Source: Saururus chinensis
Lineage: Eukaryota; Streptophyta; Magnoliopsida; Piperales; Saururaceae
Direction of reading: 5' to 3'
Length of the DNA stretch: 64,000 bases
NCBI GenBank assembly: GCA_035235625.1
Contig: CP141148.1
Coordinates: forward strand, 16,617,057-16,681,056
In this document: piece after piece, positions 26,001 to 56,651 of the stretch
How the letters are laid out: each line of letters begins with the position of its first letter
Numbering within the stretch: position 1 is the stretch's first letter
Notes under the pieces: generated by a model
Databases searched by the model: none
What the model saw: the letters and a program-made list of their open reading frames with translations, nothing else
Told to the model about the DNA's origin: nothing
Made by a program: the position numbers and the translations under genes

Positions 26001-26162
26001 TTTTAAATGAATACGTACTCATTTGCTAAGTTTAAAAGAATTAATTAAACTTTCTAAATGATGAATCAATTGGATCACTTTTTTTAAATGAATACGTACT
26101 CATCTACTAAGTTTAAAAGAATTAATTAAACTTACTAAATGATGAATCAATTGGATCACTTT
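26001..26162 (+). repeat. 81-bp tandem duplication within a satellite monomer
   Basis: The segment beginning ttttaaatgaatacg is present twice back to back (26,001-26,081 and 26,082-26,162), with very few differences. It is a partial-monomer duplication younger than the surrounding monomers, which differ far more from each other. Confidence 0.9.
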
Positions 26163-28015: not shown

Positions 28016-28193
28016 AAATTAAACGTACTAAATGACGAACCAATAGGACCACTTTTAGTAAAGTTATATCCTTTTAATTGTTGATTGAAACAGAAGTAAA
28101 TTAAGAAATTAAACATACTACATGACGAACCAATAGGACCACTTTTAGTAAAGTTATATCCTTTTAATCGATTGAAACAGAAATAAATTAAGA
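28016..28193 (+). repeat. 90-bp tandem duplication within a satellite monomer
   Basis: The segment from aaattaaacgtacta to the gaaacagaagtaaattaag stretch is repeated in tandem (28,016-28,105 and 28,106-28,193). The rare words 'ccaataggaccac' and 'agtaaagttat' are shared by both copies. Like the 26,001-26,162 case it points to recent slippage or unequal exchange on a sub-monomer scale. Confidence 0.9.
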
Positions 28194-31100: not shown

Positions 31101-34100
31101 TCGCTTAACTTGATTTAAAATAATGCACCAAAGCTCATCACGAATATATATTTAATTGTTATAAATAACTATGTATTCATTTGCTAAATTTGAAAGAATG
31201 AATCAAATGTACTAAACGATTAACCAATCGGCCCACTTTTTGTCATGTTCTATCATTTCGATTAAAATCGAAGTAAGTTAAGAATGTGCACAAATTATTA
31301 TATCATTTAGAGTTTAAAGAGATCTCTCATTCAATCGTTATGTTCGTATTAACGAATCCAATTTATAAAGTGATTTTACAATTTGACCATTCTTTATTCA
31401 CTTATATATTTTCATTCACTTAATTAGTAAACAAAGCACCATAGCTCGTCACGAATGTATATTCAATTATTTTAAATAAAAAACTTACTCATTCGCTAAT
31501 TTTGAAATAATGAAACAAACATATTTAACAACCAGCCAATTTGACAACTTTTGGCCAAGTTATATCATTTTAATCAATTAAAACCGAAGTAAGTTAAAAA
31601 TATTCACAAATTGGTATATTGCTTAAAGTTTGAAGAGACTTGTCATTATTTGTTACATTCATAATAATGAATATAATTAACAAAGTGATTTTACAATTTA
31701 ACCTTTCTTCCTTAACTTATATGATTTCGTTCGCTTTACTAGATTTAGAACAAAGCAACAAAGCTCGACACTAATATATATTTTAATTATTTTAAATAAA
31801 TACATACTCATTCGCTACATTCAAAAGAAGGAATTAAACATGTTAAACGATGAACCAATCCTTTTTGGTCAAGTTATATCCCTCTTATTGATTAAAACTG
31901 AAGTAAGTTAAAAATGTGCACAAATTATTATTATATCATTTAAAGTTTAATGACACCTCCCATTTATTCAAATTAACAAAGAGATTCAATAATTCGACCG
32001 TTCTTCCTTAACTTTTGTAATTTAATTTACTTAACTTTAATTACAACAAAACACTAAAGCTCATCACAAATGTATATTTAATATTTTTAAATAACTACAA
32101 ACTCATTTGCTAAGTTCGAAATAAAAAATCCAATATACTAAACAACGAACCAATCGGACCACTTTTAGTTAAGTTATATCCTTCTAATCAATTAAAACTG
32201 AAGTTAGTAAAGTATGTACACAAATCATTATATCGCTTATAGTTTATAAATACCTCTCATTCATTCGTTACGTTTGTAATAACGAATCAAATTAATAAAT
32301 CAATTCCAAAATTTTACCGTTCTTCATTAACTTATATAATTTTATTCTCTTAACTTAATTTATAAGAAAGAACCAAAGCTCGTCACCAATGTATATTTAA
32401 TTACTTTAAATAAAAATATACTCATTTACTAAGTTCGAAAGAGTGAATCAAACGTACTAAATAACGAACAAGGCACAAAAGCTAGTCATAAATGTGTATT
32501 TAATTGTTTTAATCAATATATACTCATTTAGTAAGTTCAAAAAAGTAATTCAAATGTACTAAACAACGAACTAATCGGACCCCATTTGGTCAAGTTATAT
32601 CCTTTTGATCGATTAAAACCAAAGTAAGTAAAGAATATTCACAAATTGTTATATTGTTTAAAGTTTAAAGAAAAAGCTATTTAATTGTTACATTCGTAAT
32701 AACAAATTAAATTGACAAAGTTATTCAATAATTTGACCGTTCTTCCTTAACTTATATAATTTCATCCGTTTAACTAGATTTAGAATAAAGCACCAAAGCT
32801 ATTCATGAATATATATATTTGATTATTTTAAATTAATACGTACTCATTTGCTAAGTTTAAAAGAATAAATCAAACATACTAAACGATGAACCTATCAGAC
32901 CCATTTTTTTCCAGTTATATAGTTTTGATCGATTAAAACCGAAGTAAGTTAAGAATGTGCACGAATTGTTATTTCATTTAAAGTTTAAAGAGACCTCCCA
33001 TTCAAAGGTACTAAACAGCGAACTAATTGGACCCCTTTGGTTAAGTTATATCCTTTTGATCAATTAAAACCGAAGTAAAGAATGTGCACAAATCGTTATA
33101 TCATTTATTATTTAAATAGACCTCCCATACATTTGCTATGTTCGTAACAACAAATCAAATTGACATAATGATTTCGCAATTTGACTGTTCTTTCTTAACT
33201 TATATAATTTCATTGACTTAAAGCACCAAAGCTCACCACGAATGTATATTTACTTATTTTAAATGAATACGTACTCATTTGCAAAGTTCAAAAGAATAAA
33301 TTAAACATACTAAATGACGAGACAATCAGACCCTTTTTTCTCAAGTTATATCATTTTGATCAATTAAAACTAAGTAAGTTAAAGAATGTGCACAAATTGT
33401 TATATTATTTAAAGTTTAAAGACCTCCCCTTCATTTGCTACATTCGTAATAACAAATCAAATTGACAAAGTTATTCAACAATTTGACTGTTCTTCCTTAG
33501 TTTATATGTTTTTATTTACTTTACTATATTTAGAGCGAAGTACTTTAGCTTATCATGAATTTATATTTAATTATTTTAAATAAATATGTCCGCATTTGTT
33601 GAGATTGAAAAAATAATTTAATCATACGAAACAACAAACCAATCGGACCACTTTCGGCAAAGTTATATCAGTTTATTTGACTAAAATCGAAGTAAGTTAA
33701 GAATGTGCACAAATTGTTATATCGTTCAAAGTTTAAAAAGACCTCCCATTCATGTAATAAAGAATCAAAGTGATAGTGATTTTACAATTTGACAAATCTT
33801 CCTTAGCGTATATGATTTTATTCACTTAACTAGATTTAGAACAAAGCACTAAAGCTCTTTACAAAAGTATATTTAATTGTTTTAAAAAATATGTATTCAT
33901 TTGCTAAGTTGAAAAGATTGAATCAAGCATAGTAAACGACGAACCAATCATACCCCTTTTCGTTAAGTTATATCCTTTTGATCGATTAAAACCGAAGTAA
34001 GTTAAGAATGTATACAAATTGTTATATCGTTTAAAGTTTAAAGAGACCTCCTATTCATTAGTTACATTTGTAATAAAAAGTCAAATTAACAAAGTTATTC

Positions 34101-35789
34101 CACAATTTGACTATTCTTCCTTTATTTATAAGATTTTATTTGCTTAACTAAATTTAAAACAAAGCTCACGAATGTATATTTAATTATTTAAAAAGAATAC
34201 GTACCATTTCCTAAGTTAAAAATGAATCAAGTATACTAAATGACAAACCAATCAAACCCCTTTTGGTCAAGCTATATCTTTTCGATTGAATAAAACTGAA
34301 GTAAGTTAATAATGCGTACAAACCGTTATATCATTTTATGTTTAAAGAGACTTATCCTTCATTTGCTACATTCGTAATAATTTATATAATTTCATTCGCA
34401 TTACTAGATTTAGAAAAAAAATACTAAAGCTCATAAAAAATGTAAAATTAATTATTTTAAATAACTATATAGTCATTTTCTATTTTCAAAAGAATGAATC
34501 AAACGTACTAAACAACAGACTAATCGGACAACTTTTGGTTAAGTTATATTATTTTAATCGATTATAACCGAATTAAGTTTAAAATGTATATAAATTATTA
34601 TATCGTTTAAAGTTTAAAGAGACATCCCTTTAATTGACTACATTCGTATTAATGAATAAAATTCAAAAAGTGATACAACAATTTAACTATTTTTTAATTT
34701 ATATGATTTAATTCGCATAACTAGATTTAGAACAAAACACTGATCGTCATGAATATATATTTAATTATTTTAAATAACTATATTGTCCTTTACTATGTTC
34801 GAAAGAATGAATTAAACGTACTAAACAACGAACTAATTGGACCCCTTTTGGTCAATTTAAATCCTTTTGATCATTAAAAACCGAAGTTAAAAATCTGCAA
34901 AAATCGTTATATCGTTTAAATTTTATAGAGTCTTCCCATTCATTTTTCACATTTGTAATAACGAATCAAATGGACAACATAATTATACAATTTGACCATT
35001 CTTTATAAGCTTATATGACTTCATTCACTTAACTAAATTTATAACAAAGTACTAATGCATGTCACAAATATATATTTAATTATTTTAAATTTGTACGTAC
35101 ACATTTTCTAAGTTCGAAAGAATGAATCAAATGTGTTAAATGTTGAACTGATTGGATTTCTTTTGGTCAAGTTATATCCTTTTGATCGATTAAAACTAAA
35201 TAAAGTTAAGAATGTGCACAAATTATTATATCGTTAAAAGTTTAAAGAGATCTCCCATTATTTTGTTACATTCGTAATAAGGAATCAAATTAACAAAGCA
35301 ATTCTACAATTTGACCGTTCTTCCTTAACTTATATGATTTTATTCACTTTACTTCATTTATAACAAAGCACTAAAGCTCGTCACGAATGTATATTTAATT
35401 ATTTTAAATAACTATGTACTCATTTGCTACGTTTGAAAGAATGAATCAAACGTAGTAAACAACGTACCAATCGGACCACTTTTTGTTCAAGTTATATCCT
35501 TTTAATCGATTAAACCCGAAGTAAGTTAGGAATGTGCACAAATTGTTATATCACTTATAGTTTGAAGAGGCCTCCCATTAATTCGTTATGTTCATAATAA
35601 CAAATCAAATTAACAAAGTGATTCCACAATTCTACTGTTCTTCATTAACTTATATAATTTCTTTCCCTTAACAAAGCACCAAAGCTCGTCATGAATATAT
35701 TTTTAATTTTTTTCAATAAAACATATTCATTTGTTAAGTTTAAAAGAATGATTCAAACATTCTAAACAACGAACCAATTGGATGAAGTG

Positions 35790-38035
35790 TATCACAACCT
35801 GGATTTTTAAAAGACTTTTCAAAATAGCATGAACGGTAGTCACGAGAAATTTTTTTTATCTTTTCTTCTTAAATACAAAACAAACCATTCAATTAAATAT
35901 CCAGGTCATTCGATCAAATCATATGATATTATTACACATCTCAAAATTCAATAAGAACAGCTCATCCATCTAAGTACAAAGTCTATCATCTGTCTGAACA
36001 TAAATAACAAGTTGACTCTCACGCTAAAGATATACTTACGTATCGGAGTTGGAGACACAAAAAACTTCATCTTGTGCTCGCCTCCTGGTCTCACTTGTCA
36101 TCACGTGGAGAATCTGGAACCAACCAAACCACCCGCCTTCAGGAGAAGAGCTTCCAAAGGACAAAAGGTTTTATTAATATTTTTTGGATCAAGCCAACAT
36201 CACCTAATGTTAGTTGCCTATGTACTCATCGGACAATATCTCTACTGTTTCAACATTATAATGAAACAGATTAGAGCTGAGATGAACAACTCAAGTCAGC
36301 TATCTAACATGACAAATTTAGGCTAATACAACCATCAACGTTCAACCTAAGGTATATCACAATCAAGGCTGAAATTCAGGGACTTAATAAGTATAAATAC
36401 ATCATGAACTAAGGCTCAAAGATCAGGGATTTAATAAGCAAGATTACAACCTAAATCAAGCTGAGAATCAAGTATAGATAGCCAATAAAACAACCTAAAC
36501 TAGGGCTAAAATTCAGGTATTCTCTCAATTTGGTATTAATTTAGCCAAAGTAGAGCCTAAAACAAGGTTGTAATTTAAGGATTTAAATAGGCAAAAGTAT
36601 AGCCTTAAACTATGCTGCAAATCAGGGATCTAAATAAACAAAGTAGAGCCTAAACCAAAGCTATTCACCCATCAATTAATCTTTCAATAATCTCAAGCTA
36701 GTGATAAGTTACTATCACAACATCAATAACAAATATCGAAACAATGAACAACATAAACAATCAGAAGAACCACATAAGTCCCAATACATAATATCAATAA
36801 TTAAATTCAATAATGATATTATAATTGTTTGAGCAGTCATGCCCTAACCCTCTTTGGGTTAACTTATTAAATCTTTATGAAAACTAGTCATAATGCACCT
36901 AAGGGCATTAAAGTAATTATCTAACATTGGATAGGGTCCTCTCTGCTCTTGCGTAAGTCTTTATCCTCTCAAAAGATTTCAGTATCACATTGGCCCATTA
37001 ATAACATCCACGCATAAGGGTCTTTTTGTTCAGGGCTTCTCTAAACCCTAATGGGTCCAAAAACTAATCTCAGGGTTACACCTTGAAGTTCTGAACACAA
37101 GGTAATCTTCTTGCCATTTAATGAGGTCGTAAACCCCTTGAATTGACCCCGGTTCGATTAACCATCTTACTTTAACCCTAGGGATAAAATAGTCAATTAT
37201 CTATTTGTTAGGATTTTTCCCTAGCTTATATGACTTGGTTAAAAATTTAGGATACATATTAAAATATTATTGGGATTTTTATCAATTTTTAAATCCACTC
37301 ACTAACCCCTGAACCTAAGCCCCTAAGTTTGGTCAACAATAATTATTCTATGATTTAACTCGTAAGGGAATAATAATTTGCGTACATTTTGGAATCACTT
37401 TGTAACGTTCGGGATATTTCTAAATTCCTGATGTCGACCACGTGGAAATTAAGATATTAAACCCCTTTCTCATGAGAATAACTTGATTATCAGTTGGGAT
37501 TAGTGGCTGGAACTTAAATGAATGGAAAGTAGATAGAAAAAGCTTTGAAATGCCACCAAGAATGTGCAAATCAAAGTCCGGATGTGGGAGATACGACTGT
37601 TTGAAGTTAAACATATTGCATAGGGCCCGTTTACCCGATTTTAACGTGTAATTGGGCCGTTTAAATCATTTTGCGGGCCCAATTAATTAGAACTCCGAAT
37701 AAATTTTTAGTGACCCAATTAAGTGGCCTAAGTGAGGAGGTTTGGCCCAACTTCTAAGGGGATTAGGAACCCTAATCTCCATGCCTATAAATAGGCCAAT
37801 TAAAGCTAATAGAGGGGGATTAACTCTAACCGTTAAGGGAGAAAAGAGGAAATGGGGGAAGGAGGGGAAGAAGCCACAATTGAAGGAAAAAAAAACAAGC
37901 AGCTTAGAAAAGATATGGTGGCCTAGAAGTTCGAGCAGATCGTGAATGATTTGAAGATGTTCATGCCAAAACGAAAACCTAGCCTGATCGAGAGGGTGAA
38001 AATTGGCTTCAATCACTTTAAGAATAAATTCGTAA
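35790..38035 (-). mobile_element. Element X2: rearranged second copy of the X solo LTR
   Basis: 35,790 to about 37,387 matches X1 (9,095-9,294 joined to 14,528-16,460) in the same minus orientation, starting tatcacaacctgg. About 37,388-38,035 is the other end of the same LTR in the opposite orientation: at 37,401 it begins tgtaacgttcggg, the X LTR start, and continues through a TATA-like cctataaatagg near 37,785. Just before 37,401 lies ggaatcactt, which is satellite in inverted orientation. Its cactt is the complement of the aagtg that precedes the element at 35,785-35,789. The simplest reading is that the half of the LTR nearest its start, plus a few flanking satellite bases, was inverted after insertion. 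No coding domain; frames at 36,012-36,326 and 37,687-38,016 are not recognisable. Confidence 0.72.
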
Positions 38036-41000
38036 AAATTCGTAAAAATAAATTGAATGCACTAAACTACACTTATGGTTTAAAAACACCTCCTATCATT
38101 TGTTACATTCGTAATTATGAATTAAATAGATAAAGCGATGCCACAATTTAACCGTTCTTTTATAACTTATGTGATTTTATTCGCTTATCTACTTTTAGAA
38201 CAAAACACCCAAGCTCGTCACGAATATATATTTGGGTATTTTTAAAAATTATGTACTAATTTACTAAGTTCATAACAATTAATCAAATGTACTAAATGAC
38301 GAACTAATTGGACCACTTTTGGCTAAGATAGAAGTTCGTTAAGAATGTGTATAAAATCATTATATTATTTAAAGTTTTAAAAGGCCTCCAAATTATTTTT
38401 TATGTTCGTAATTACAAATCAAATTGAGAATGCTATGGCATAATTTATCCATTCTTTCTTAACTTATGTGATTTTGTTCATTTATCTAGTTTTCGAACAA
38501 AGCACTCAACTAGACAAGAATGTATATAAAGTCTTTTTAAAGAAATATGTACCTATTTACTAAGTTCATAAGACCACTTTTTGGTTAATTATTTCCTTTT
38601 AATCGACTAAAACTGAAGTTTATTAAGATTGTGACCAAATTGTTATTTTGTTTAAAGTTTAAAAATACCTCTCAATCATTTGTTACTTTCAAAATTACGA
38701 ATCAAATAGAGAAAGAGATGCTACAATTTGATTTTCTTCCTTAACTTATGTGAGTTTATTTGCTTAACTTGTTTTAGAACAAAACAACTAAGCTCGTCAA
38801 GAATGTATATTTGGCTATTTTAGTGAAATACGTACTCATTTGCTAAGTTCATAAGAACAATCCAACACTCTAAATGACAAACCAATCGGATAACTTTTGA
38901 TCTAGTTATATCATTTTAACCTATTAAAATCAAAGTTCATTAAGAATGTGCACAAATCGTTATATCATTTAAAGTTTTAAAGACCTCATAATCATTTGTT
39001 ACTTTCAAAATTACGAATCAAATAGAGAAAGAGATGCTACAATTTGATTGTTCTTCCTTAACTTATGTGATTTTGATTGCTTAATTAGTTTTAGAACAAA
39101 GCACCTAAGCCAGTCACAAATATATATAAAGTCTTTTTAAAGAAATACCTACCCATTTACTAAGTTCGTAAGAACGAATCAAATGCACAAAATGACAAAC
39201 CAATCAGACCACTTTTTGTTTAATTATTTCCTTTTGATCGATTAAAACCAAAGTTCGTAAAGATTGTGCTCAAATTATTATATCATTTGAAGTTTAAAAA
39301 GACTTTGACAATCATTTGTCACATTCTTAATTACGAACCAAACAGTGAAAGCGATGCCACAATTTGACAATTTTTCCTTAACTTATTTAATTTTATTCGC
39401 TTAAATCATTATATTATTTAACATTTAAAAAGGCCTCATAATCATTTTTTATGCTCGTAATTACTAATAAAATGGAGAAAGTGATGCCACAATTTGCCCA
39501 TTCTTCACTAACTTATGTGATTTTATTCACTTAACTAGTTTTAGAACAAAGCACCCAAGCTAGTCACGATGTATATTTAGTTCATTTAAAGAAATAGTAC
39601 TCATTTTCTAAGTTCGTAAGAACAAATCAAATGCATAAAATGACGAATAAATCGGACCAATTTTGGTCAAGTTATTTCCTTTTATTTGAATAAAACTAAT
39701 GTTCATTAAGAATGTTCACAAATCATTATATTATTTAAAATTTAAAAAGACCTTCGAATGATTTGTTATATTTGTAATTACAAATTAGATGGAAAAACGA
39801 TGTCATAATTTGATTGTTCTTTCTTAACATATGTGATTTTATTCGCTTCACTAGTTTTAGAGCTAAGCACCCAAGCTTGCTATGAAAGTATTTTAGTTTC
39901 TTTAAAAAAATACTTATTTACTAAGTTCGTAAGAATAAATTAAATGCACTAAATGACAAACCAATCAAACTACTTTTTATCTAGTCTATTTCTTTTAATT
40001 GATGAAAACCAAAGTATGTTTAAAATGTGCCTAAATTGTTATCCCGTTTAAAGTTTTGAAAGACCTCTAAATCACTCGTTATGTTCGTAATTATGAATAA
40101 AATGAAAAAAACGATGCGACAATTTGACCGTTCTTCCTTTACTTCCTTAACTAGTTTTAGAATGAAGTACAAAAGATAGTCACGAATATATATTTAGTTT
40201 CTTTAAAGAATTTGTACTCATTTACTAAGTTCGTAAGAACGAATCAAACGCACAAAACGACGAAACAATCAGACAACGTTTTGTCTAGTTATTTCCTTTT
40301 AATCGATTAAAACTGAAGTTCATTAAGAATGTGTACAAATTATTATATCGTTTAAAGATTAAAAAGTCCTCATCATTTGTTACGTTGGAAATTATGAATC
40401 AAATGGAGAAATCGATGCCATAATTTGACCGTTCTTCTATAACTTATGTGATTTTATTTGCTTAGCTAGGTTTAGAACAAAACACTGAAGCTCGTCACGA
40501 ATATATAGTTAGTTATTTTTTTAATAATATGTACTCATTTACGAATTTTGTTACAACGAATCAAATAGACAAAATGACGAACTAATCGAACTACTTTTGG
40601 TAAAGTTATATCCTTTTAATTAATTAAAACCAAAGTTCATTAAGAATGTGCACAAATTGTTATATCGCTTAAGGTTTTAAAAGACATCCCAATTATTTGT
40701 TAGGTTCGTAATTATGAATTAAATGGAGAAAGCTATGTAACAATTTGACCATTCTTCCTTAACTTATATTATTTTATTTGCTTAACTAGTTTTAGAAAAA
40801 AAGCAACAAAGCTCTCCACAAATGTATATTTTGTTCTTTTAAATAAATACGTACTCATTTACTATATTCGTAAGAATGAATCAAATGCACTAAACGATGA
40901 ACCAATTGGACCACTTTCAGTCTAGTTATATCCATCTAATCAATTAAAACCAAAGTTCATTAAAAATGTGCATAAATCATTATATTTATGAAAGCAACCT

Positions 41001-44000
41001 AGCGGTGTCACGAATGTATATTTAGTTGTTTTAAATAAATACATACTCATTTACTATGTTCGTAAGAAGGAATCAAATGCACAAAATGACAAATCAATCG
41101 GACCACTTTGGTTCTAGTTATTTCCTTTTAATTGGTTATAACCGAAGTTCGTTAAGAATGTGTACAAATCGTTATATCATTTAAAGTTTTGAAAGACCTC
41201 TTTATCATTTGTTACATTCGTAATTATGAATCAAATGGATAAAGAAATTCAACAATTTGACCGTTCTTCCTGAACTTAAGTGATTTTATTTGCTTAACTA
41301 GTTTTAGAATAAAGCAACTAAGCTCGTCACGAATGTATATTTAGTTCTATTTAATAAATACATGCTCATTTACTAAGTTTGTAAGAACGAATCAAATGTA
41401 CTAAATGACGACGAACCAATCGGACCACTTTTCGTCTAGTTATATCATTTTAATCAATTATAACCAAAGTTTGCTAGGAATGCACACAAATCTTTATATC
41501 GTTTAAAGTTTAGAAGAAAGTCCTAATCATTTATAACGTTCGTAATTACGAATCAAATGGAGAAAGCAATGCCACAATTTAACTGTTCTTCTTTAACTTA
41601 TGTAATTTTATTCTCTTAACTAGTTTTAGAACAAAGCACCCAAATTAGTTAAGAATGTTTGTTTAGTTTTTTTGAAGAAATAAGTACCCATTTACTAAGT
41701 TCGTAAGAACGAATCAAACATACAAAATGACGAACCAATTGGTCCACTTTTTGTTTAATTTTTTCCTTTTAATCAACTAAAATTGAAGTTATTTAAGATT
41801 GTGACCAAATCGTTATATCGTTTAAAGTTTAAAAATGCCTTTCAATCATTTCTTACCATTTTTAATTACGAATCAATGGTAAAAGCGATGCTAGAATTTG
41901 ACCATTCTTCCTTAACTTATGTAAGTTTATTCGCTTAACTTGTTTTAGAACAAAGCAACTAAGCTCGTCAAGAATGTATATTTGGCTATTTTAGTTAAAT
42001 ACGTACTCATTTGCTAAGTTCATAAGAACAAATCTAACACTCTAAATGACAAACCAATCGAATAACTTTTGATCTAGTTATATCATTTTAACCTATTAAA
42101 ATCAAAGTTCATTAAGAATGTGCACAAATTATTATATCATTTAAAGTTTTAAAGACCTCATAATCATTTGTTATTTTCAAAATTATGAATCAAATAGAGA
42201 AAGAGATGCTACAATTTGATTATTCTTCCTTAACTTATGTGAGTTTATTCGCTTAACTTGTTTTAGAACAAAGCAACTAAGCTCGTCAAGAATGTATATT
42301 TGGCTATTTTAGTGAAATACGTACTCATTTGCTAAGTTCATAAGAACGAATCCAACACTCTAAATGACAAACCAATCGGATAACTTTTGATCTAGTTATA
42401 TCATTTTAACCTATTAAAATCAAAGTTTATTAAGAATGTGCACAAATTGTTATATCATTTAAAATTTTAAAGACCTTATAATCATTTGTTACTTTCAAAA
42501 TTACGAATCAAATAGAGAAAGAGATGCTACAATTTGATTGTTCTTCCTTAACTTATGTGATTTTGATCGCTTAATTAGTTTTAGAACAAAGCACCTAAGC
42601 CAGTCACAAATATGTATAAAGTCCTTTTAAAGAATACCTACCCATTTACTAAGTTCGTAAGAACGAATCAAATGCACAAAATGACAAACCAATCGGACTA
42701 CTTTTTGTTTAATTATTTCCTTTTTTAATAAATTAAAACCAAAGTTCGTAAAGATTGTGCACAAATCGTTATATCATTTGAAGTTTGAAAAGTCTTCACA
42801 ATCATTTGTCACATTCTTAATTACGAATCAAATGGTGAAAGCAATGCCACAATTTGACAATTCTTCCTTAACTTATGTGATTTTGTTTAAAAAGGCCTCG
42901 TAATTATTTTTTACGCTCGTAATTACTAATCAAATGGAGAAAGCGATGCCACATTTTGACCTTTCTTCACTAACTTATGTGATTTTATCCGCTTAACTAG
43001 TTTTAGAACAAAGCACCCAAGCTAGTCATGATGTATATTTAGTTCTTTTAAATAAATACGTACTTGTTTTCTAAGTTCGTAAGAACAAATCCAATGCACA
43101 AAACAATGAACAAATTGGACCGCTTTTGGTCAAGTTATTTTCTTTTAATTGAATAAAACTGATGTTCATTAAGAATGTTTACAAATCGTTATATCGTTTA
43201 AAGTTTAAAAAGTCCTTCAAAAATTACGAATTAGATGGAGAAAACAATGCCACAATTTAAATATTCTTTCTTAACATATGTGATTTTATTCTCTTAACTA
43301 GTTTTAGACCCAAGCACCCAAGTTCATTCTGAAAGTATTTTAGTTTTTTTAAAAAAATACTTATTTACTAAGTTCGTAAGAATAAATTAAACGCACTAAA
43401 CAACGAGACAATCAAACTACTTTTGGTCTAGTTTATTTCTTTTAATCGATGACAACTAAAGTATGCGTAGAATGTGCCTAAATTGTTATCCCGTTTAAAG
43501 TTTTGAAAGACCTCCAGATCATTCGTTATGTTCGTAATTATGAATAAAATAGAAAAAGAGATGCAACAATTTGACCGTTCTTCCTTTATTTACATGATTT
43601 TATTCGCTTAACTAGTTTTAGAATGAAGTACACAAATGTATATTTAGTTTCTTTAAAAAAATTTGTACCCATTTACTAAATTCATAAAAACGAATCAAAC
43701 GCACAAAATGATGAACTAATCAGACCACTTTTTGTTTAATTATTTCTTTTTAATCGATTAAAACCAAAGTTAGTAAAGATTATGCACAAATCGTTATATC
43801 ATTTGAGGTTTAAAAAGACTTCACAATTATTTGTCACATTCTTAATTACGAACCAAATGGTGAAAGTGATGACATAATTTGACAATTCTTCCTTAACTTA
43901 TTTGATTTTATTCGCTTAGCTAGTTTTAGAACAAAGCAGTCAAGCTCGTCCTGAATATATAGTTAGTTATTTTTTAATAATATGTTACTTATTTACGAAG

Positions 44001-45452
44001 TCTGTTACAATGAATCAAATAGACAAAATGACAAACTAATCGAACCACTTTTGGTTAAGTTATATCCTTTTAATTAATTAAAATTAAAATTCATTAAGAA
44101 TGTACACAAATTGTTATATTGCTTAAAGTTTTAAAAAAAATCCCAATTATTTCTTAGGTTTGTAATTACGAATTAAATGGAGAAAGCTATGCAACAATTT
44201 GACTATTTTTCCTTAACTTATATTATTTTATTTGCTTAACTAGTTTTAGAAAAAATGCAACAAAGCTCGCCACGAATGTATATTTTATTCTTTTAATTAA
44301 ATAAATACGTACTCAGTTACTATGTTCATAAGAATGAATCAAATGCACTAAACGACGAACCACTTAGACCACTTTCAGTCTAGTTATATCCATCTAATCA
44401 ATTAAAACCAAAGTTTGTTAAAAATATGCATAAATCATTATATCTATGAAAGCAACCTAGCTCGTCACGAATGTATATTTAGTTGTTTTAAATAAATACA
44501 TACTAATTTACTATGTTCGTAAGAATAAATCAAATGCACAAAATGACGAATCAATCAGACCACTTTTGGTCAAGTTATTTCTTTTTAATCGATTATAACC
44601 GAAGTTTATTAAGAATGTACACAAAATGTTATATCGTTTAAAGTTTTGAAAGACCTCCATATCATTTATTACGTTCGAAATTATGAATCAAATGGATAAA
44701 GCAATGCCACAAATTGACTGTTCTTCCTTAACTTAAGCGATTTTATTCGCTTAACTAGTTTTAGAACAAAACAACTAAGCTTGTCACGAATCTATATTTA
44801 CTTCTATTAAATAAATACATACTTATTTACTAAGTTTGTAAGAACGAATCAAATGTACTAAATAACAAGCCAATTGGACTTATGTGATATTATTTGTTTA
44901 ACTAGTTTATAACAAAGCATCCAACTTATAGTCAATAATGTTTGTTTAGTTTTTTAAAGAAATATCTACTCATTTACTAAGTTCGTAAGAATGAATTAAA
45001 CGTACTAAACCGAAGTTTGTTAGGAATGTGTAAAAATTGTTATATCATTTAAAGTTTAAAAAGTCTTCTTAATCAATTGCCACAAATTGAGAAAGCGATG
45101 CCACAATTTGACCGTTCTTCTAAAACTTTGTGATTTTATTTACTTAACTAGTTTTAGAACAAAGCACCCAAGCTAGTTATGAATGTATATTTAAATTTTT
45201 TAAGGAAATATGTACTCATTTACTATGTTTGTAAGAACGAATAAAATGTACAAAATAATGAACAAATTGCACCACTTTTGGTCAAGTTATTTTCTTTTCA
45301 TCAATTAAAACCAAATTTTGTTTAGAATGCACAAAAATTGTGAAATCGTTTAAAGTTGAAAAAGTTCTCCCAATCATTTTGTTATGTTCGTATTTATTAA
45401 TTAAATGGAGAAAGCGATGCCACAATTTGACAATTCTTTATTAATTTAACTA
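38036..45452 (+). repeat. Satellite array, subfamily B
   Basis: About 24 plus-oriented monomers of a distinct subfamily. Diagnostic differences from A are cgtaattacgaatcaaatgg (A: cgtaataacgaatcaaatt), gagaaagcgatgccacaatt (A: acaaagtgattccacaatt), 'cttatgtgattttatt' (A: 'cttatatgatttcatt'), aactagttttagaac (A: aactagatttagaac), 'gaagttcgttaagaat' (A: 'gaagtaagttaagaat') and a tatatttagtt start. Subfamily B starts immediately after X2 and ends at the orientation switch near 45,453. It contains a long-period higher-order repeat. No gene seen. Confidence 0.93.
38560..45050 (+). repeat. Higher-order repeat in subfamily B, period about 3.45 kb, two units
   Basis: Individually recognisable monomer variants return in the same order at nearly constant spacing. 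The 'tatatttggctattttagt' variant is at 38,810 and 42,295. The 'gaaagtattttag' variant is at 39,885 and 43,330. The 'atatatagttagttattttt' variant is at 40,500 and 43,960. The 'tatgaaagcaacctag' junction monomer is at 40,987 and 44,447. The 'aatgtttgtttagtttttt' variant is at 41,655 and 44,937. Offsets cluster at 3.44-3.48 kb and drop to 3.28 kb at the end. The second unit has one additional monomer copy (about 41,945-42,250 against 42,250-42,550). Confidence 0.85.
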
Positions 45453-45465
45453 GTTCTAAATCTAG
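45445..45465. other. Satellite orientation switch (inversion junction)
   Basis: Left of this point monomers read on the plus strand and are subfamily B. Right of it they read on the minus strand and are A-like: the sequence passes from 'ttaactagtt' directly into 'ctaaatctagtaaagcgaat', the reverse complement of the 'cgcttaactagatttagaac' block. There is no spacer, and the join falls at ctag-containing near-palindromic sequence common to both orientations. Confidence 0.9.
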
Positions 45466-46261
45466 TAAAGCGAATAAAATCATATAAGTTAAGGAAGAAT
45501 GGTTGAATTGTGGAATCACTTTGTTAATTTTATTCGTTATTACAAATGTAATAAATGAATGGAAGGTCTCCTTAAACTTTAAATAATATAACAATTTGTT
45601 CAAATTCTTAACTTCGGTTTTAATTGGTTAAAATGATATAATTTGACTAAAAGGGGTCCGATTGGTTCGTGGTTTAGTACATTTAATTCAATTTTTTGAA
45701 CTAAGCAAATTGAGTACGTATTTATTTAAAATAATTAAATATACATTCATGACTAGCTTTGGTGTTATGTTCTAAATCTAGAAAAGTGAAAGAAATCATA
45801 AAAGTTAAGGAGGAACGGTAAAATTGTGGAATCACTTTATTATTTTGATTCATTATTATGAACGTAATAAATTAATGTGAGGCCTCGTTAAAATTTAAAC
45901 AATATAACAATGATTTGTGTATATATTCTTAGCTTACTTTGGTTTTAATAAATTAAAAGGATATAACTTAACCAAAAATGATTCTATTGGTTCGTCGTTT
46001 AGTACGTTTAACTCATACATTTGAATGTAGCAAATGAGTACGTATTTATTTAAAATAATTAAATATACATTCATGACAATATAACAATTTGTCCACATTC
46101 CTAACTTACTTTGGTTTATAATCGATCAAAAGCATATAACATGACTAAAAATGATCCAATTGGTTCATCGTTTAGTATGTTTGATTAATTATTTTAAACT
46201 TAAGAAATGAGTATATAGTTATTTTAAACAATAGTTATTTAAAATTATATAAATTAAGGAA
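45453..46261 (-). repeat. Satellite A, inverted arm, proximal part
   Basis: About 2.5 minus-oriented monomers between the switch and E3. The last one is shortened ('gttattttaaacaatagttatttaaaattat'). The final five bases, aggaa (46,257-46,261), are the left copy of the E3 target duplication. No gene; frames crossing this stretch are chance frames. Confidence 0.93.
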
Positions 46262-46855
46262 TGATGTGCAGCGCAGAGAAAGAAGATGAGTGCCAAAGCA
46301 AAAATGAACTCTGAACGGAACTCGCTGAGAGGAAAAATCACAAGGATTACGACGACTTCCTTAAGCTTGAGGTATCCAAGCTTGAGGGCATCTGAAACTA
46401 TCTCTGAAGAGAGAAAGCCAAGGAAGATAGGTTCTGAGAGTTGCTGATACTCCAGACACAAATTAAAGATGAACAAGCCAAAACCCCCAATTTCATAACA
46501 TAGAAGCCATATATATAGGCATAAATTCGTACAAGCATTTGAGATAGCATTAAATAAAGTGAAAACTAGTTCCAAAAGCATTAAAAGTCATAAAACAAGT
46601 CCCTAAGTGGACTACATATAAAAAGGCGTCTTGGTTGCAACAGCTTGCTTTTAATTAATGAGGCCTTGGGACTCCAAAGGTTGTAGGTCAAGAAAAGAAT
46701 CTCTGTAGTTGGGCTCAATTAATCCTTGGCTTTTAGTCTTCTCGTGGATTCTTGGGTTTCTTCTTAAATAAGGATGATGAGCCTTTAGCTGGGCTTTCAA
46801 TGGCTTTGCTGCATCTAGCTTGTCCAGGTACTTGTCAGTAACATGATCCACATCA
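46262..46855 (-). repeat. E3 3' LTR
   Basis: 594-bp LTR running from tgatgtgcagc to gatccacatca on the plus strand, matching 56,652-57,246. On the minus strand it contains a TATA-like ctatatatatgg near 46,510-46,520. About 205 bp of its upstream end is covered by the C-terminal end of the integrase reading frame. Confidence 0.95.
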
Positions 46856-48060
46856 TTCTCCCCAGGTGGAAGAAAACTCATCCTTGAGTTTGCAATTTCG
46901 TCTTCTGAATTGTTTCCATAATATAGAATCAGATGCTTAACATTAAAAACATCATGAGTGCGGATATGGCTGGGAAGCTTCAATCTATAGGCATTGTCAT
47001 TGATCTTCTCAACAATCTCATATGGACCGATCTTACGTGGGCTTAACTTACTATAATCTCCTTGTGGAAATCAATCCTTTGTAAGAACAGCCCACACATA
47101 ATCACCATTTTCAAAAACTAACTTTCTGCGGTGTTTGTTTGCTGCAAGCTTGTATTGTTCTGTTGTCTTCATCAAGTTAGTCTTAACTTCTTCATGATCT
47201 TGAAGCATCTCAGAAACAAAGCCTTCCATCTTCTTGCTGGGCCGCTTCAAGTTAGGTAGAGGAGCAAGATCTAAGGCAGCCCTCGGGTTTACACTATAAA
47301 CAACTTCAAAAGGACCAAAACCTATAGAGCGGTTAGTGGACCTGTTGTAAGCAAATTCAGCTTGTGCTAGAGCATGATCCCATTTCTTCAAATTTTCCCC
47401 AGTTAAGCATCTCAATAAATTACCAAGGCTTCTATTGATAACTTCAGTTTGCCCATCTATTTGGGGGTGATATGCACTACTGAATTGAAGATTTGTGCCA
47501 AGTAACCTCCAAAGACTCCTCCAAAAGTGGCTGACAAATTTTGGATCACGATCTGAAGTGATGGACTTGGGAACACTATGGAGACGAACTACTTCACAAA
47601 AATAGATCGAAGCAATATGTGAGGCATCCATTGTCTTTCTGCAAGATATGAAATGAGCCATCTTCGAAAAATGGTCTACAATAACAAAGATAGAATGGAC
47701 GCCTCTTTGTGTTTTTGGAAGCCCCAGAACAAAATCCATGCTTACATCTGTCCATGGTCCTTCAGGAATGGGAAGTGGCATATAAAGTCCAGCATTTGTG
47801 GAAGTTCCCTTTGAGACTTGGCACACATGACAACTTCTCACATAACGAGTAACCTCCTTTCGAATTGAAGGCCAATAGTAGTCTTTAGAGATGAGATCAA
47901 GAGTCTTCTTTTCTCCAAAGTGTCCTTTACTGTGGAGCTCTTGAGTAATCTTTAGCCGCAGGGAACACTCTGGGATACACAACTGATTCCCTTTGGAAAG
48001 GAAACCATCACTGAGAAAATACTCAGACTTTTTTCCTTCTTTGATACCTGCAATTATATG
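46651..48060 (-). pseudogene. E3 integrase region with C-terminal tail entering the 3' LTR (fossil)
   Basis: The HHCC zinc-finger region ends in SCHVCQVSKG (about 47,800-47,835). The DDE core is marked by DVSMDFVLGLPK, TSDRDPKFVSHFW and TDGQTEVINRSLGNLLRC-like motifs. The C-terminal DVFNVKHLILYY block is near 46,925-46,960, and the tail then continues through VDHVTDKYLDKLDAAKPLKA into the 3' LTR, stopping near 46,651. Coding sequence overlapping the 3' LTR is known in CRM-type elements. I do not see a canonical chromodomain. This copy is broken. Confidence 0.85.
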
Positions 48061-48139
48061 AGAAAAGTAATAATCAGTGGGATAGAGTTCTCGAATTGTT
48101 CCAAACCCAATGACTTCAGCTTGCATTCTAGAGAGTAGA

Positions 48140-49330
48140 GAAGTCCGGCGACTTAAAGCATCAGCTACTCGATTTTGCACTCCAGATTTGTGGTTCAGGG
48201 TGAATGTGAACTCTTGGAGATAGGCGGCCCACTTTGCATGTCTGTGGTTGAGCTTTTGTTGGCTGTGAAGGTGCTTCAATGCTTCATGGTCAGAGTACAA
48301 GACGAAGTCTCGTTGGATTAGATAATGCCGCCAATGCCTTAATGTTTGATATACAACATAGAACTCCATATCATAGGTAGAATACCGCTGCTTTGCTCCA
48401 CCAGACTTTTCACTAAGTAGGCAACAGGTTTGCCTTCTTGACTTAACACAGCACCAATACCAACTTTAGAAGCATCACAATCAACATCAAACAACTTTTC
48501 AAAGTCTGGCAATGCTAGTAGAGGTGCAGCTGATAATCTTGCCTTTATCTCAAGGAAACTCCTCTCAGCTTCAAGAGTCCACTCTAGTTTTGCCTCTTGA
48601 TGCACTCTGTGATTGATGCTACAATTGTGCTGAAATGATGAATAAACCGTATGTAGAAAGAAGCAAGTCCATGGAAAGACCTTACTTCAGTAATTGTAGT
48701 GGGGCGGGGCCATTCAACAATTGCTCGCACCTTGTCATCATCAACCTTGATGCCATCTCCAGAAACAATGAATCCCAAAAATAGGACTTGAGGAGTCATA
48801 AACTCACACTTCTTCAGCTGCACAAATAATCTTTCCCTGCATAAAGTATTCAGTACTTCACGAAGGTGCTGCAAATGTAACACACTGTTAACACTATAAA
48901 TCAATATATCATCAAAGTAAACTATGATGCATCACCCAATGAAGAGCTTCAGCACATGGTTCATTACCCTCATAAAAGTGTTTGGTGCATTTGACAAACC
49001 AAATGGCATGACAAGCCACTCATATAAGCCTTCACACGTCTTAAATGCTGTTCTCCATTCATCTCTTGGTTTCATTCTGATTTGGTGGTAGCCGCTTTTA
49101 AGATCAAGCTTTGAGAAGATAGTTGCTCCAGCCAAATTATCTAGCATATCATCCAATTTTGGAATTAGAAATCTATACTTCACTGTTATCTTATTAATAG
49201 CACGACTATCTATGCACATTCTCCAAGTACCATCTTTTTTTGGCACCAAGAGAGCTGGGACACCACATGGACTCAAACTTTCTTTGATATACCCCTTCTC
49301 CAATAGTTCAGCAACTTGTCTATTCAATTC
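48140..49330 (-). pseudogene. E3 reverse transcriptase and RNase H region (fossil)
   Basis: Reverse transcriptase motifs: [20 protein letters not shown] (about 49,190-49,250), [33 protein letters not shown], and a YFDDILI catalytic box near 48,900-48,928. RNase H follows, with [30 protein letters not shown] and VADALSRR. The [22 protein letters not shown] combination resembles CRM and Galadriel rather than Reina. This copy is broken. Confidence 0.88.
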
Positions 49331-49573
49331 TTCATGTTAGGAAGGCTAGCACCTGGAACCAAATCAATTTGGTGCTGAATGTCCCTTAGTGGAGGTAAGC
49401 CAGTTGGTAATTCATCAGGGAAGACATCTGAAAACTCATCAATAAGAGGTCTAGCACAAATGGGTATTACTTGCTCCTTGGACTCCTGCCTGGAAAGAAG
49501 TACATAAACAACTCCTTTTTCCTTCACAACTCTTTCAAATTGTGTCAAAGATAACAACTTTGAACTATCGGAT

Positions 49574-50008
49574 TGTTGTGTCCGGGTCGGACACAAACGG
49601 TACCTAGCTTCACGAAGGGGAAAGGGGAGAAGTTTGGACGAAGGAAGAAGAGAAATAATTCTAAATTGCATAAACGTCCAAGGAGGAAGACAACCCCTTT
49701 TATAGGAGGCGGTCAGCTAGTCCTCCCCCTAACTAGGGACCAGCTGGTCTGTTACAATCCCCTTAATTACGGACCACCATCTGGTCCGTTCAATCATTAA
49801 CGGACCGTTACAATCATTAATGGTCCGTTACATTAAGGGTCCGTTACAATAATTAATGGTCCGTTACAATCATTAACTAAATCCCCTTGATTACGCTTTA
49901 TTACATCACAAAAGGAAATTACCAAAAAGTAAAGTAAGCCATAATATAGTAGGTCCTAAAATAGAAAGTAGTGCATGGTGAGGGAGATGTCTCATGGTGT
50001 ACACAACA
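49574..50008 (-). repeat. E2 3' LTR
   Basis: 435-bp LTR from tgttgtgtccggg to gtacacaaca on the plus strand, matching 54,694-55,129. The minus strand carries a TATA-like cctataaaagg near 49,697-49,707. A block of short direct repeats lies at 49,782-49,876. Confidence 0.96.
49782..49876. repeat. Short direct and inverted repeats in the E2 LTR
   Basis: Five close copies of a 'ggtccgttacaatcattaat'-like unit of about 20 bp, one of them starting from the complementary 'cggaccgtt', fill this stretch; the same block is at 54,902-54,998 in the other LTR. Position upstream of the TATA-like box in transcriptional sense is compatible with an enhancer-like U3 repeat, which is inference. Confidence 0.85.
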
Positions 50009-50009
50009 C

Positions 50010-51540
50010 TCCACCACGCTTCCGCTTTCGCCTTGTCCTCAAGGCGACCAAGTAGGGTAGCGCTCCATGAACTCATCCTCAAGCATCCAAGTAGCATCCT
50101 CAAGAGGTTGACCCTGCCAAGACACGAGTACCTCAGTGACAATACGGCCCGAACGATGCACCCGTCATTTATCAAGCACAAAGGCAGGTGTGGGTAAGTC
50201 AGGCTCGGGGGGCCCCATCAGTGGTGGAGGCGGGGCACTAGAGACAAGGGTCGGGTCCCCAACAAAACGGCGAAGGCGAGAGACATGGAAGACCGGGTGC
50301 ACCAACGATCCGGTGGGCAATGCCAAGCGGTAAGCCACGGGTCCGATGCGCTCGATAATGGAATAAGGGCCATGGTAACGTTGAGCCAACTTAGCATTGT
50401 CAGCTTGGAATAAGCTGGTCTGACGCTGAGGAATCACTGAGACATAAACAAGATCGCCCACATGGAACTCCTGATCAGTATGCTTCTTATCATATACCTG
50501 CTTCATACGGTTCTGAGCAGATCCTAAATTGAGTTTAAGCTGTCGGATAACCTCGTCTCGTGTCTGGAGCATATAATCAACCTCAGCCACAGAAGAGCGG
50601 TGAGGCACATAGGACAACACGGTAGGAGGAGGGCGCCCATAAACTACCTCAAAAGGAGTGAATCCAGCCCTTGTATGATAGGCCGTGTTATACGACCATT
50701 CTGCCCAAGGAAGGAGCTGGAGCCATCGGCGGGGCTGATCCCCAACGAAACAGCACAAGTACTGTTCTAAGCAGCGGTTAACAACCTCTGTCTGCCCGTC
50801 TGTCTGTGTGTGATAGGCAGTACTCATATGAAGTTTGGTGCCCTGAAGTGCAAAGAACTCGCGCCAAAACTGAGAGAGGAAGATCCGGTCTCGATCAAAA
50901 ACAATGGTGCGAGGCATGCCATGCAACTTAGCTACCTCACGAACATACATCTCAGCCACTGTTTTGGCGGTGAATGGATGGCCCAAGGCACAGAAATGTG
51001 CATACTTGGACAAGCGATCCACAACCACCAAAATTACTGATTTGCCCTGTACAACGGGCAAGGCCTCCACGAAATCCATAGACACATCTTCCCAAACTTT
51101 GTCGGGAATGGGGAGGGGCTGAAGTAACCCAGCAGGTGATGTAGTAGCAGCTTTCGCCCGCTGACAGACGTCGCACGCAGCCACATAGTTTTGAACTGCC
51201 CTCCGAAGACCCTGCCACAAGAAGCTTTGACTGACCCGCTTATATGTTCGGAAGGAACCCTCATAGCCAGCCAATGGTGTGTCATGGAAATGAGAGAGAA
51301 TACGTTGTCGGAGATCATATGCATCCGGCACCCACAATCGTCCCTTCCAAAAGAGAAGTTCATCTTGCCACACAAATAAAGGAAGGGCAGCAGGGTCACC
51401 TTGTATACGAGTAACCAGCTCATGTGTGGATGAGTCCTCCAAGTAAGCGCGCCGCAGCTCCGGTAGGAAGGGGCAAGAGGGCATAGACAATGGAAGATAA
51501 GATTCGTCAGAAGGTCGGCGAGAGAGAGCATCTGCCACCG
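50010..51540 (-). pseudogene. E2 integrase and chromodomain region (fossil)
   Basis: The integrase zinc finger ends YVAACDVCQRAKA near 51,150-51,190. The DDE core is marked by SMDFVEALPVVQGKS, RDRIFLSQFWREFF and [16 protein letters not shown]. The [20 protein letters not shown] block is at about 50,310-50,370. Beyond it, around 50,030-50,160, a chromodomain-like segment (SWQGQPLEDATWMLEDEF) is visible. In chromoviruses this domain is thought to steer integration to heterochromatin, in keeping with the setting. The copy is broken. Confidence 0.88.
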
Positions 51541-52730
51541 TATTTTCTGCCCCCTTCTTATATACCACCTCACAGTCATAGCCCAAAAGCTTGCTGACCC
51601 ATCGTTGCTATGCCGGAGTTGACACCCACTGCTCAAGAAAGTACTTCAAGGGCTGATGGTCTGTGCGGATGAGGAAGCGGCGGCCGAGCAGGTAAGGGCG
51701 CCATTTGGTGACTACATGTATTATGGCGAGCATCTCCTTCTCATAGGCTGAAAGTGATAAGGAGCGGCCAGCAAGTGTTTTGCTGAAAAAGGCAATTGGC
51801 CACTCATCTTGAAGTAGAACGGCACCAAGACCCTTATCCGAAGCATCTGTCTCCACCACAAAGGAATGACTGAAATCTGGAAGAACCAAGACTGGGGCAG
51901 TTGCCATGGCCTGCTTCATCCTCTCAAAGGCCTCTTGGGCTGCCTCTGTCCAAGTAAAGGCCCCCTTCTTGAGGAGGGCAGTGAGGGAACTAGCAATCAT
52001 CCCATAGTGACTGATGAAATGTCGATAGTACCCTGTAAGGCCTAGAAATCCACGGAGTGCTCGGACACATGTGGGGGTCGGCCATGAGAGCATAGCGGCT
52101 ACCTTTGAAGGGTCAGTGGCAACCCCTTCATGAGAGATGACATGGCCAAGGTACTCCACCTGTTTACTGCCAAAAAAGCACTTCGAGCGCTTAAGGAATA
52201 ATGAATTAGCTCGCAAAATAGAGAGGACAGTTCTGAGATGCTCCAAGTGATCCGTCCATGATGTGCTATATAGATCAATATATCATCAAAGAAGACCAAG
52301 ACAAATTGGCGAAGGAAAGGGCGGAACAAGTCATTCATGAGGTTCTGGAAGGTAGCTGGTGCATTGGTCAATCCAAATGGCATGACCAAGAATTCAAAAT
52401 GGCCATCATGGGTGCGGAAGGCTGTCTTGTGGACATCAGTTGGCTGCACACGGATTTGATGATATCCCGAGCAAAGATCAAGCTTGCTGAAGACGGCCGC
52501 CCCAGACAACTCATCGAGGAGCTCTTCAATCACCGGAATAGGATACTTATCCTTGACAGTGATAGCATTCAGTGCCCGGTAGTCTACACAGAACCGCCAA
52601 GTGCCATCCTTCTTTCGGACAAGTAACACTGGTGAAGAGAAGGAACTAGTGCTTGGTTGGATGATACCTGACTGGAGCATGTCGGCCACCAAGCGCTCAA
52701 TCTCCGCCTTTTGGATGTGAGGGTATCGGT
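51540..52730 (-). pseudogene. E2 reverse transcriptase and RNase H region (fossil)
   Basis: Reverse transcriptase motifs [48 protein letters not shown], and the VFFDDILIY catalytic box near 52,268-52,302 appear in order. RNase H follows with VETDASDKGLGAVLLQDE, IRTDHQPLKYFLEQ and NTVADALSRR. It is strongly similar to the same region of E1. The copy is broken. Confidence 0.9.
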
Positions 52731-52789
52731 ATGGCCGGACATTTGCGGGTGAAGCACCAGGGATGATAGGAATGTGGTGATCATGGGGT

Positions 52790-54666
52790 CACACCGGAGG
52801 TAGCCCCTTAGGTTCGGCGAAGACATCTTCATGCTCCGCCAAGAGAGCAAGTAGATCCTCCGGAAGGCTGCCTTGGCTCACATCAACAGTGGCACGCTGC
52901 TGAAGAAAAATTCCTTGAGGTGCAAACCGAAAGAGAGTGCTTACTGATTGGGCGGACTGCAAGGTGCCTAGCTGAGAACCTTGGATGCGAACCCGCTGCC
53001 CGTGTACCTCAAAGTCCATGATCATGTCACGGAAGTTCCATATGATGTCACCCAGCTCCTGAAGCCATTGGACTCCCAACACCACGTCAGCCCCTTTTGT
53101 GGGCAGCAAGAACAAATCAGTTTTGAAAGTATGGCCCTGGATGGATAATGAAGCCTGCAGACACACCCCAGTGCTCCGAAGGTGTTTGCCATTGCCGATC
53201 AAGACGTCGAATGGCTTCGAGTCTGACACAAAGCACCCCAACCGTTGTGCCACCTTATCATTGATGAAGTTATGGGTGGAGCCACTGTCGATAAGGATGG
53301 CCACTTGTTGCCGCTTGAGGTAGCCTTGGACGCGCATGGTGCGAGGAGTGAAGGCCCTTGAAAAAGCATGCACCGAAATCTCAGGCAACATGCTTGCATA
53401 AGGGGGTGGTGCATCCGGGGGTGGATCATAATCCTCCTCATCGGCCTCCTCGACTAGTAGGCTGCCTCGGACAGAACACCGATGGCCGGGTACGAACTTC
53501 TCATCACACTTGAAGCACAAGCCTTTCGATCGCCGCTCTTCCATTTGGGCCGGAGTGAGGCTGCGTATAGGAGCACCAGCAGGGCCGGAGGGCTGGCTGG
53601 GGCGGCTGGTGGGAACGCTGATCACTGCGGTAGGGAAGGGCGCTGGGCTAGTTGGGGGTCGAAGAGAAGAGCCTAGCCAGCCTCCTCGTTGTTGTTGGGC
53701 CAGCTTCTCCTCTTCAATTCGTGCATGACGCACAACTTCACGCATCGACGTACAAGGGAAATGACGCATCTCATCTGAAATTTCTGGTTTGAGCCCCCTT
53801 TTAAAGGTTCCAACGAAGGCTGCCATTGGCCAATCAGGGAGGCGATTCGCAATCTTCATGAACTCGGTGTAGTATGCTCGCACGGTAGTGGTTTGGCGCA
53901 GTGTGGACAACATCTCATTGAAATCTTGGAACTCATTGGGGCCGAATTGGACACAAAGCTCATCAGCGAATGAAGTCCAAGTTGGGAAGCGGACCTCCTT
54001 CTCGAAGCTCTGAAACCAAATTGAAGCATCGCCGTCTAGATGGAAAGCGGCTATACGTAACCGTTCAGCCTCGGAGTGAGTTCCCTGGTAGGAAAAAATT
54101 TTCTCCACCTTGTATAGCCATTCCACCGGGTCTTCATCTCCATTGTACCGTGGGAATTGAAGACGAGCCAAATGTGGCTCAGCCCCACCCCGAAGTCCTC
54201 CGCGGAAGGCAGAGTACTCCTCCCCATCATCCTCAAACTCGTGGGCAAGATTTTTGTGGGGCGGCACCATTGAGGCATTTCCTTGAACATCTGGAGGGCC
54301 TCGCATATTCCAACCTGCACGTCCTCCTTCTTTGTGCTGATTAAAGGTGCCAAAGCGGACTGAATGTCCGGGATGGTGCACCTCTCTCTCAGACGACGCT
54401 TGGAGGCCGGGGGCGCGAGATTCAATGGGCTGCGAAGGTTCACCCAACTCAGCCTGGACTGGCTGCGGCTTGGGAAAAAGTGACGCTGTGGGGGCTGCTT
54501 GAATTTGGGAAACCGTCGTGGTGAGGTGCCCGAGTTGTGCAAGGATCAGCGAGAGCAAAGAGGGATCAGCCTGTTCGGTTGCTGGTTTGGGGCTGCTCGC
54601 TATGTCCTCTTGTCCCTTCTCGGGCTGTGTCTTGGGAGCCGTTGCCGGCTGTTTGCCTCGTGCCAT
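52790..54666 (-). pseudogene. E2 gag-protease region (fossil, long open stretch)
   Basis: Begins at an ATG at 54,666 (MARGKQPATAPKTQ), about 12 bp beyond the primer site. An upstream in-frame ATG lies in the LTR and is less likely to be the start. About 625 residues are open. In order they hold a variable proline/glutamine-rich N-terminus, the capsid-type segment EDPVEWLYKVEKIFSYQGTH, the knuckle CFKCDEKFVPGHRC near 53,480-53,525, and an aspartic protease with ILIDSGSTHNFINDKV near 53,290. The gag and protease would be made as one polyprotein with pol in this family. Confidence 0.9.
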
Positions 54667-54678
54667 GGCAGATCGATG

Positions 54679-54693
54679 AGGCTTTGATACCAA
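54679..54693 (-). other. E2 primer-binding site (initiator Met tRNA type)
   Basis: Next to the 5' LTR the minus strand reads TTGGTATCAAAGCCTC, one mismatch from the TGGTATCAGAGCC site of initiator Met tRNA. It confirms that the right-hand LTR is the 5' one. Confidence 0.9.
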
Positions 54694-55129
54694 TGTTGTG
54701 TCTGGGTCAGACACAAACGGTACCTAGCTTCACGAAGGGGAAAGGGGAGAAGTTTGGACGAAGGAAGAAGAGAAATAATTCTAAATTGCATAAACGTCCA
54801 AGGAGGAAGACAACCCCTTTTATAGGAGGCGGCCAGCTAGTCCTCCCCCTAATTAGGGACCAGCTGGTCTGTTACAATCCCCTTAATTACGGACCACCAT
54901 CTGGTCCGTTACAATCATTAACGGACCGTTACAATCATTAATGGTCCGTTACATTAAGGGTCCGTTACAATAATTAATGGTCTGTTACAATCATTAACTA
55001 AATCCCCTTGATTACGCTTTATTACATCACAAAAGGAAATTACCAAAAAGTAAAGTAAGCCATAATATAGTAGGTCCTAAAATGAAAAGTAGTGCATGGT
55101 GGGGGAGATGTCTCGTGGTGTACACAACA
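54694..55129 (-). repeat. E2 5' LTR
   Basis: 436-bp partner of 49,574-50,008 with the same ends, the same TATA-like box and the same internal short repeats (54,902-54,998). About nine substitutions separate the two. Confidence 0.96.
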
Positions 55130-55239
55130 CGGATTTAGGTTTCTTTTCAATGTCCCTTGAAGGCACTAATGTAAATTTCATCTTTTCCAACATGAAACTA
55201 TAAGTATTTTGTCGACCATCATGCACAACAGAATTATCA

Positions 55240-55640
55240 TACTACCATGGTCTACCTAATAATAGGTGACAAGCATCCATAGGGGCCACATCACACCACA
55301 CAGAATCACTATATCTATATCCAATCGAAAATGAAACAAGGCAACGTTTTGAGATTGTTACCTCATTATCTTTTCTGAACCAAGTGAGTTTATAGGGCTG
55401 GGGATGTGATTCGGTTGGAATGCTCAACTTCTTCACAGCCTCTTCAGAGATGACATTCTCACAGCTTCCGCTATCAATAAGTAACGAGCAAACTTTTCCT
55501 CCGATTGTGCAAGTAGGTTTAAAAATGTTGTAGCGCAACCAATCTTCACTAGATTCTCCTCGTGGAAACAAAAGAGTATTCTGAATGACAAGGAGCTCGC
55601 CCTCATCACCCTGCAGTTCTTCCTCTATCTCTTCATCAAA
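55240..55640 (-). pseudogene. E3 protease region (fossil)
   Basis: An aspartic protease segment with LLIDSGSCENVISEEAVKKL (active-site DSG near 55,450-55,490), followed by the CHLLLGRPW end motif near 55,245. In this family the protease matures the gag-pol polyprotein. E2 is inserted a short distance downstream, between protease and reverse transcriptase. Confidence 0.88.
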
Positions 55641-56620: not shown

Positions 56621-56635
56621 CAAGAAAGCAACCCG

Positions 56636-56651
56636 GCACTTCGATACCAAC
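56636..56651 (-). other. E3 primer-binding site (Met tRNA type)
   Basis: The minus strand next to the 5' LTR reads GTTGGTATCGAAGTG, sharing the TGGTATC core of the initiator Met tRNA site. The match is weaker than in E1 or E2 beyond that core. Confidence 0.75.

Follow-up and report, generated by a model that had tools for sequence, protein, structure and literature searches.

An abrupt reversal of orientation interrupts a tandem satellite at positions 45448-45455 of the stretch of Saururus chinensis DNA that we analysed (64,000 nucleotides, hereafter the window; C9:16617057-16681056, in a genome of 516.46 Mb on 11 contigs), and the subfamily of the satellite changes at the same place. This switch is neither singular nor otherwise special within its surroundings, where similar switches are dense. 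The reading that we favour, with a probability of about 0.62, is that it represents an old illegitimate join of two satellite segments that were already opposite in orientation, in a degenerate domain that has been repeatedly cut, copied and rejoined. Coordinates below are given relative to the window, with negative values lying in its left flank and values above 64000 in its right flank.

Organization of the window

The features that bear on the switch are listed here from left to right, each with the evidence by which it was recognized.

25083-35782, plus strand: satellite, subfamily A (consensus BLAST, monomer clustering)
35783-38069, no strand: non-satellite stretch between the A+ and B+ blocks, with LTR-like and other repeat pieces (partial repeat matches)
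38070-45448, plus strand: satellite, subfamily B, the left arm of the switch (consensus BLAST, clustering, diagnostic sites)
45448-45455, no strand: switch of orientation and subfamily (BLAST, affine alignment, jumping alignment)
45453-46256, minus strand: satellite, subfamily A, the right arm until the retrotransposon (BLAST, clustering, diagnostic sites)
46257-57251, no strand: LTR retrotransposon, a clean insertion in the minus arm (target duplication, LTRs)
57252-64000, minus strand: minus-oriented A array, resumed (BLAST, orientation map, clustering)

The minus arm runs for about 800 bp (its consensus BLAST match stops at 46232), is interrupted by the retrotransposon and then continues as mostly minus-oriented satellite to 67766, beyond the window. 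The retrotransposon is bounded by a target duplication, AGGAA (46257-46261 and 57247-57251), carries LTRs at 46262-46855 and 56652-57246 that are 97.3% alike, and contains a nested second element with repeats at 49574-50009 and 54694-55130. The likeness of the LTRs could loosely date this insertion, but not the switch. Repeats that partially match the non-satellite stretch at 35783-38069 lie at 14.5 kb within the window and, on the right-hand side of the window, at 108 and 162 kb. The border at 108 kb has a copy at -26 kb; the order of A+, LTR-like and B+ sequence at 35.8-38.1 kb was rejected as the same border as at 108 kb, as the registers differ. Elsewhere in the window, an uninterrupted (AT)57 run lies within satellite at 1583-1696, and an open reading frame of 374 amino acids on the minus strand at 17671-18795 matches the C-terminal third of plastid rpoB, the RNA polymerase beta subunit (best E 1.3e-240). 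The latter is a plastid DNA fragment within the satellite array.

Two subfamilies of the satellite

The satellite, which occupies much of the window, has a tandem unit of ~319 bp and is AT-rich (~25% G+C). The 264 kb made up of the window and 100 kb on each side yielded 391 full-length monomers, which are ~77% alike on average. They fall into two groups that separate cleanly along the first principal axis, and a four-cluster cut assigned 320 monomers to A and 69 to B, leaving 2 singletons. Fourteen columns are diagnostic, and identity is 78.5% among A monomers, 79.6% among B monomers and 75.0% from one subfamily to the other. A and B are genuine subfamilies. Satellite accounts for 177,958 bp of the 264 kb, as the sum over mapped satellite intervals, in oriented stretches ~0.1 to 16 kb long, and subfamily B forms six blocks that are interleaved with A. 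Four blocks of A monomers, at about -64 to -54, -42.8 to -35, -10 to -0.8 and 88.8 to 102 kb, have in common an irregular order of monomer types along axes 2 and 3 and are ~88-97% alike; they are segmental duplications of stretches of many monomers.

The best satellite matches listed fall on 10 of the 11 contigs, at one or a few places per contig. On C11, the listed matches in 23.919-23.931 Mb recur in 23.940-23.952 Mb, each with the same score and shifted by a constant ~21.0 kb, which suggests that 21 kb were duplicated, either recently or in the assembly. The ends of C9 and C11 were also read; at C11:1-10000 the first bases form a short, degenerate tandem repeat (ATTAGTGTAGCAATATCGCTCC-like), and TTTAGGG was absent from these 10,000 positions.

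Fine structure of the switch

With the doubled satellite consensus as BLAST query, the plus-strand matches reach as far as 45448, and from 45453 onwards the matches are on the minus strand. A jumping alignment, which used A and B templates for each arm, scored the combination B+/A- best (549.1, compared with 514.2 for A/A and 501.9 for B/B) and placed the break just behind 45448, leaving 2 bases unmatched and 0 shared. In an affine local alignment, the left arm continues through AACTAGTT past an 18-bp deletion, and on this reading the join falls in a shared GTT at 45453-45455 (3 shared bases). The join may lie at either place. Across the interval 45448-45455 there are between 0 and 4 spare bases, and the abrupt head-on switch that had been predicted from the sequence is present, at the predicted coordinates (45445-45465).

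The subfamily of each arm was read at the sites at which the two consensus sequences differ. In the left arm (44500-45452), 53 of 70 such sites were B, 12 were A and 5 were neither, whereas the right arm (45452-46232) had 49 A, 4 B and 2 neither among 55. Because the left arm has its last B call at 45419 and the right arm its first A call at 45461, the change of subfamily coincides with the change of orientation to within ~40 bp, in agreement with the original prediction.

Frequency of orientation switches

Orientation changes 18 times in the 264 kb. Thirteen of these changes are abrupt, which we defined as a gap or overlap of 30 bp or less; a join at -64380 with a 114-bp spacer was examined among 14 joins and excluded from the 13. 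Subfamily also changes at 7 of the 13. Two abrupt switches were found in the 10 kb of C6 that were read, and near 25480.3 kb of C2 a minus-to-plus change is implied by the strands of the listed matches. Six samples of 7 kb, from C11, C8, C4, C1, C3 and C7, had no switch within their satellite stretches. Head-on switches are therefore a common feature of this array, and they are present elsewhere in the genome, unevenly. The original prediction had taken the window switch for a breakpoint joining two previously separate domains. A rearrangement breakpoint between subfamily blocks describes it well, but the 264 kb contain six blocks of B interleaved with A and 13 switches that are abrupt, and a singular boundary between two large domains is not supported.

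The original prediction had also noted that the join lies in near-palindromic CTAG sequence. CTAG is there, but it belongs to the repeat unit, and its presence within ~15 bp of the break at 3 of the 13 abrupt switches, compared with ~0.9 expected (0.068 per such window; binomial p ~0.05 by hand calculation), makes it a weak shared mark at most. With so weak an excess, and with the registers of the switches scattered, neither CTAG nor a palindrome was upheld as the switch site.

Among direct contacts between A and B in the 264 kb, a count that leaves out borders broken by non-satellite DNA, seven of eight are flips, the exception lying at 117.7-118.0 kb. It is conceivable that copied patches of B spread within the A array and are inserted mainly against the local polarity, so that the borders of B would coincide with flips. 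This reading is weak, because the contacts are not independent (two pairs of flips each flank one single patch), and we hold it to be doubtful.

Sources of neighbouring switches

We searched the 264 kb for the sources of these switches, as matches with minimum values of 88% for identity and 500 bp for length. Two copied pieces meet at 88793-88798: the left piece, 80215-88798, was copied from -99634 to -90998 (98% alike) and the right piece, 88794-95438, from -6515 to 129 (96.5% alike). The pieces overlap in CAAAT (5 shared bases), and at least five shared bases occur in 1.3% of random joins (n=20,000). Their source segments are 84.5 kb apart in opposite blocks, and both parents are intact elsewhere and run on as ordinary satellite past the break in the copy. 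The composite copy as a whole (80215-95438, 15.2 kb) has sharp outer edges and is a recent duplication that carries a newly formed switch. It is either a ~100-kb duplication from which the 84.5 kb are missing or the product of copying with a template switch, and in both cases the switch formed without an inversion at that position.

Two further sources were traced. An insert at -26972 to -25466, which has a switch at each end (-26973 and -25466), is a 90-91% copy of 107435-109037 (1.5 kb). Its flanks, B- at register 74 and A- at register 269, do not continue each other in register, so that the insert did not go in cleanly. For these two switches, too, no inversion at the switch is needed. A B block, -89487 to -86085, was copied in inverted form from -30404 to -27106 (~90% alike) and stops at its switch.

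Origin of the window junction

No parents for the window junction were found among matches in the 264 kb at the same thresholds: the right arm yielded nothing besides retrotransposon matches, and the left block matched only within itself, at 38.6 and 42.1 kb. In the right arm, relatives of single monomers reach 89-90%, but only within that arm (57.5/59.6 and 57.8/59.9 kb), and the best other genome match seen for the left arm, 90% over 517 bp, lies in the same block (2 of 1293 candidates scored). Since the junction has no long close relatives in the 264 kb, it appears to belong to an older part of the array.

By analogy with the neighbouring switches, we infer that the window junction had the same origin. 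Satellite segments of ~1-100 kb would be duplicated, inserted or deleted, and the ends would be rejoined with 0-5 shared bases at many places of the 319-bp unit. Where the ends came from opposite blocks, or where a copy was inserted backwards, the outcome would be an abrupt head-on switch, often with a change of subfamily.

The original prediction had named an inversion as one possible cause. A two-break inversion within the array, with the window switch as one of its two ends, would leave the opposite orientations that BLAST and the jumping alignment place at the join, and the picture would be the same if the partner had been lost or were situated beyond the 264 kb. The partner would be a B-/A+ or A-/B+ switch with registers near 249-271 and 281-283 (derived by hand). 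However, the sole abrupt B-/A+ switch on C9 in the 264 kb (-26973) has registers 74/173, the three abrupt A-/B+ switches have 238/209, 84/288 and 313/66, and none of the remaining 12 abrupt C9 switches of this region is a reciprocal partner, matching in registers and with swapped subfamilies. Nor is an inversion needed, because the one neighbour for which both parents were found, at 88793-88798, arose by the fusion of blocks that were already opposite. We consider an inversion unlikely.

The arms themselves argue against a fold-back, that is, a palindromic duplication formed by a hairpin or by template switching at a replication fork. They belong to different subfamilies, and they are 73.9% alike over 368 bp, compared with a mean of 75.1% (sd 3.2, n=150) for random opposite pieces. 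Being no closer than random, they speak against a recent fold-back and also against an artefact of a fold-back or palindromic read, and the earlier view that this is not a simple fold-back duplication is probably right. Some observations fit a fold-back: if the left arm is extended past the 18-bp deletion, the arms meet within ~10 bp of one unit position (by hand-counted registers), and a C6 switch lies at nearly the same unit position, with an offset of 11. Over 15 switches (13 on C9 and 2 on C6), offsets were 38 or less at 8, compared with ~3.7 expected under a cut-off that was chosen afterwards, which leaves room for a fold-back component in some switches. However, the overall distribution of offsets showed no significant departure from uniform (KS p=0.13), and some of the small-offset switches (88793, -25466) have another known source. 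The C6 switch was rejected as a copy of the window junction, as the two loci, aligned across the junction, are 73% alike over ~1.1 kb, no more than the random 75.1%, and both arms of the C6 switch read best as A (A/A, not B/A). For the window junction, a fold-back is very improbable.

An assembly misjoin has in its favour that the region is repetitive and that the junction is known from the assembly alone. Against it, there are zero N in the 264 kb, switches recur with distinct registers and flanks, also on C6 and, among the listed matches, on C2, and arms that differ by 26% argue against a chimeric palindromic read. The clean retrotransposon with its target duplication supports the minus arm, though not the join itself. 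We put the chance of a misjoin as slim.

Discussion

The illegitimate joining of already opposite segments that we favour can be set beside two known systems. Orientation changes and inversions are described for primate centromeric alpha-satellite arrays (PMC11062924), in which, as here, monomers are reoriented at breakpoints inside tandem arrays. The primate cases described there include a 3.2-Mb inversion, and the inversions were checked with reads, whereas the stretches reported here are ~0.1-16 kb long, consist of monomers ~77% alike and are known from the assembly alone. In the titles and abstract openings of the literature searched, there was no evident plant precedent for orientation switches in satellites, and we do not claim that none exists.

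Microhomology-mediated break-induced replication is a mechanism put forward to explain copy-number variants in humans (Hastings et al. 2009; PMC2621351). As presented there, it gives discontinuous duplications mixed with deletions as well as inverted duplications, and its joins share 2-5 bp. The sister switch at 88793-88798, which has 5 shared bases and identified parents, fits this model. The window junction, with 0 or 3 shared bases, is a candidate case only, and end joining after breaks would fit it equally.

By itself the window switch, a scar among many in this degenerate satellite, matters little. The sister switch with its intact parents shows that an abrupt change of satellite polarity can arise by deletion and fusion or from copied segments. 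It also counsels caution: an orientation flip in an assembly need not mean an inversion.
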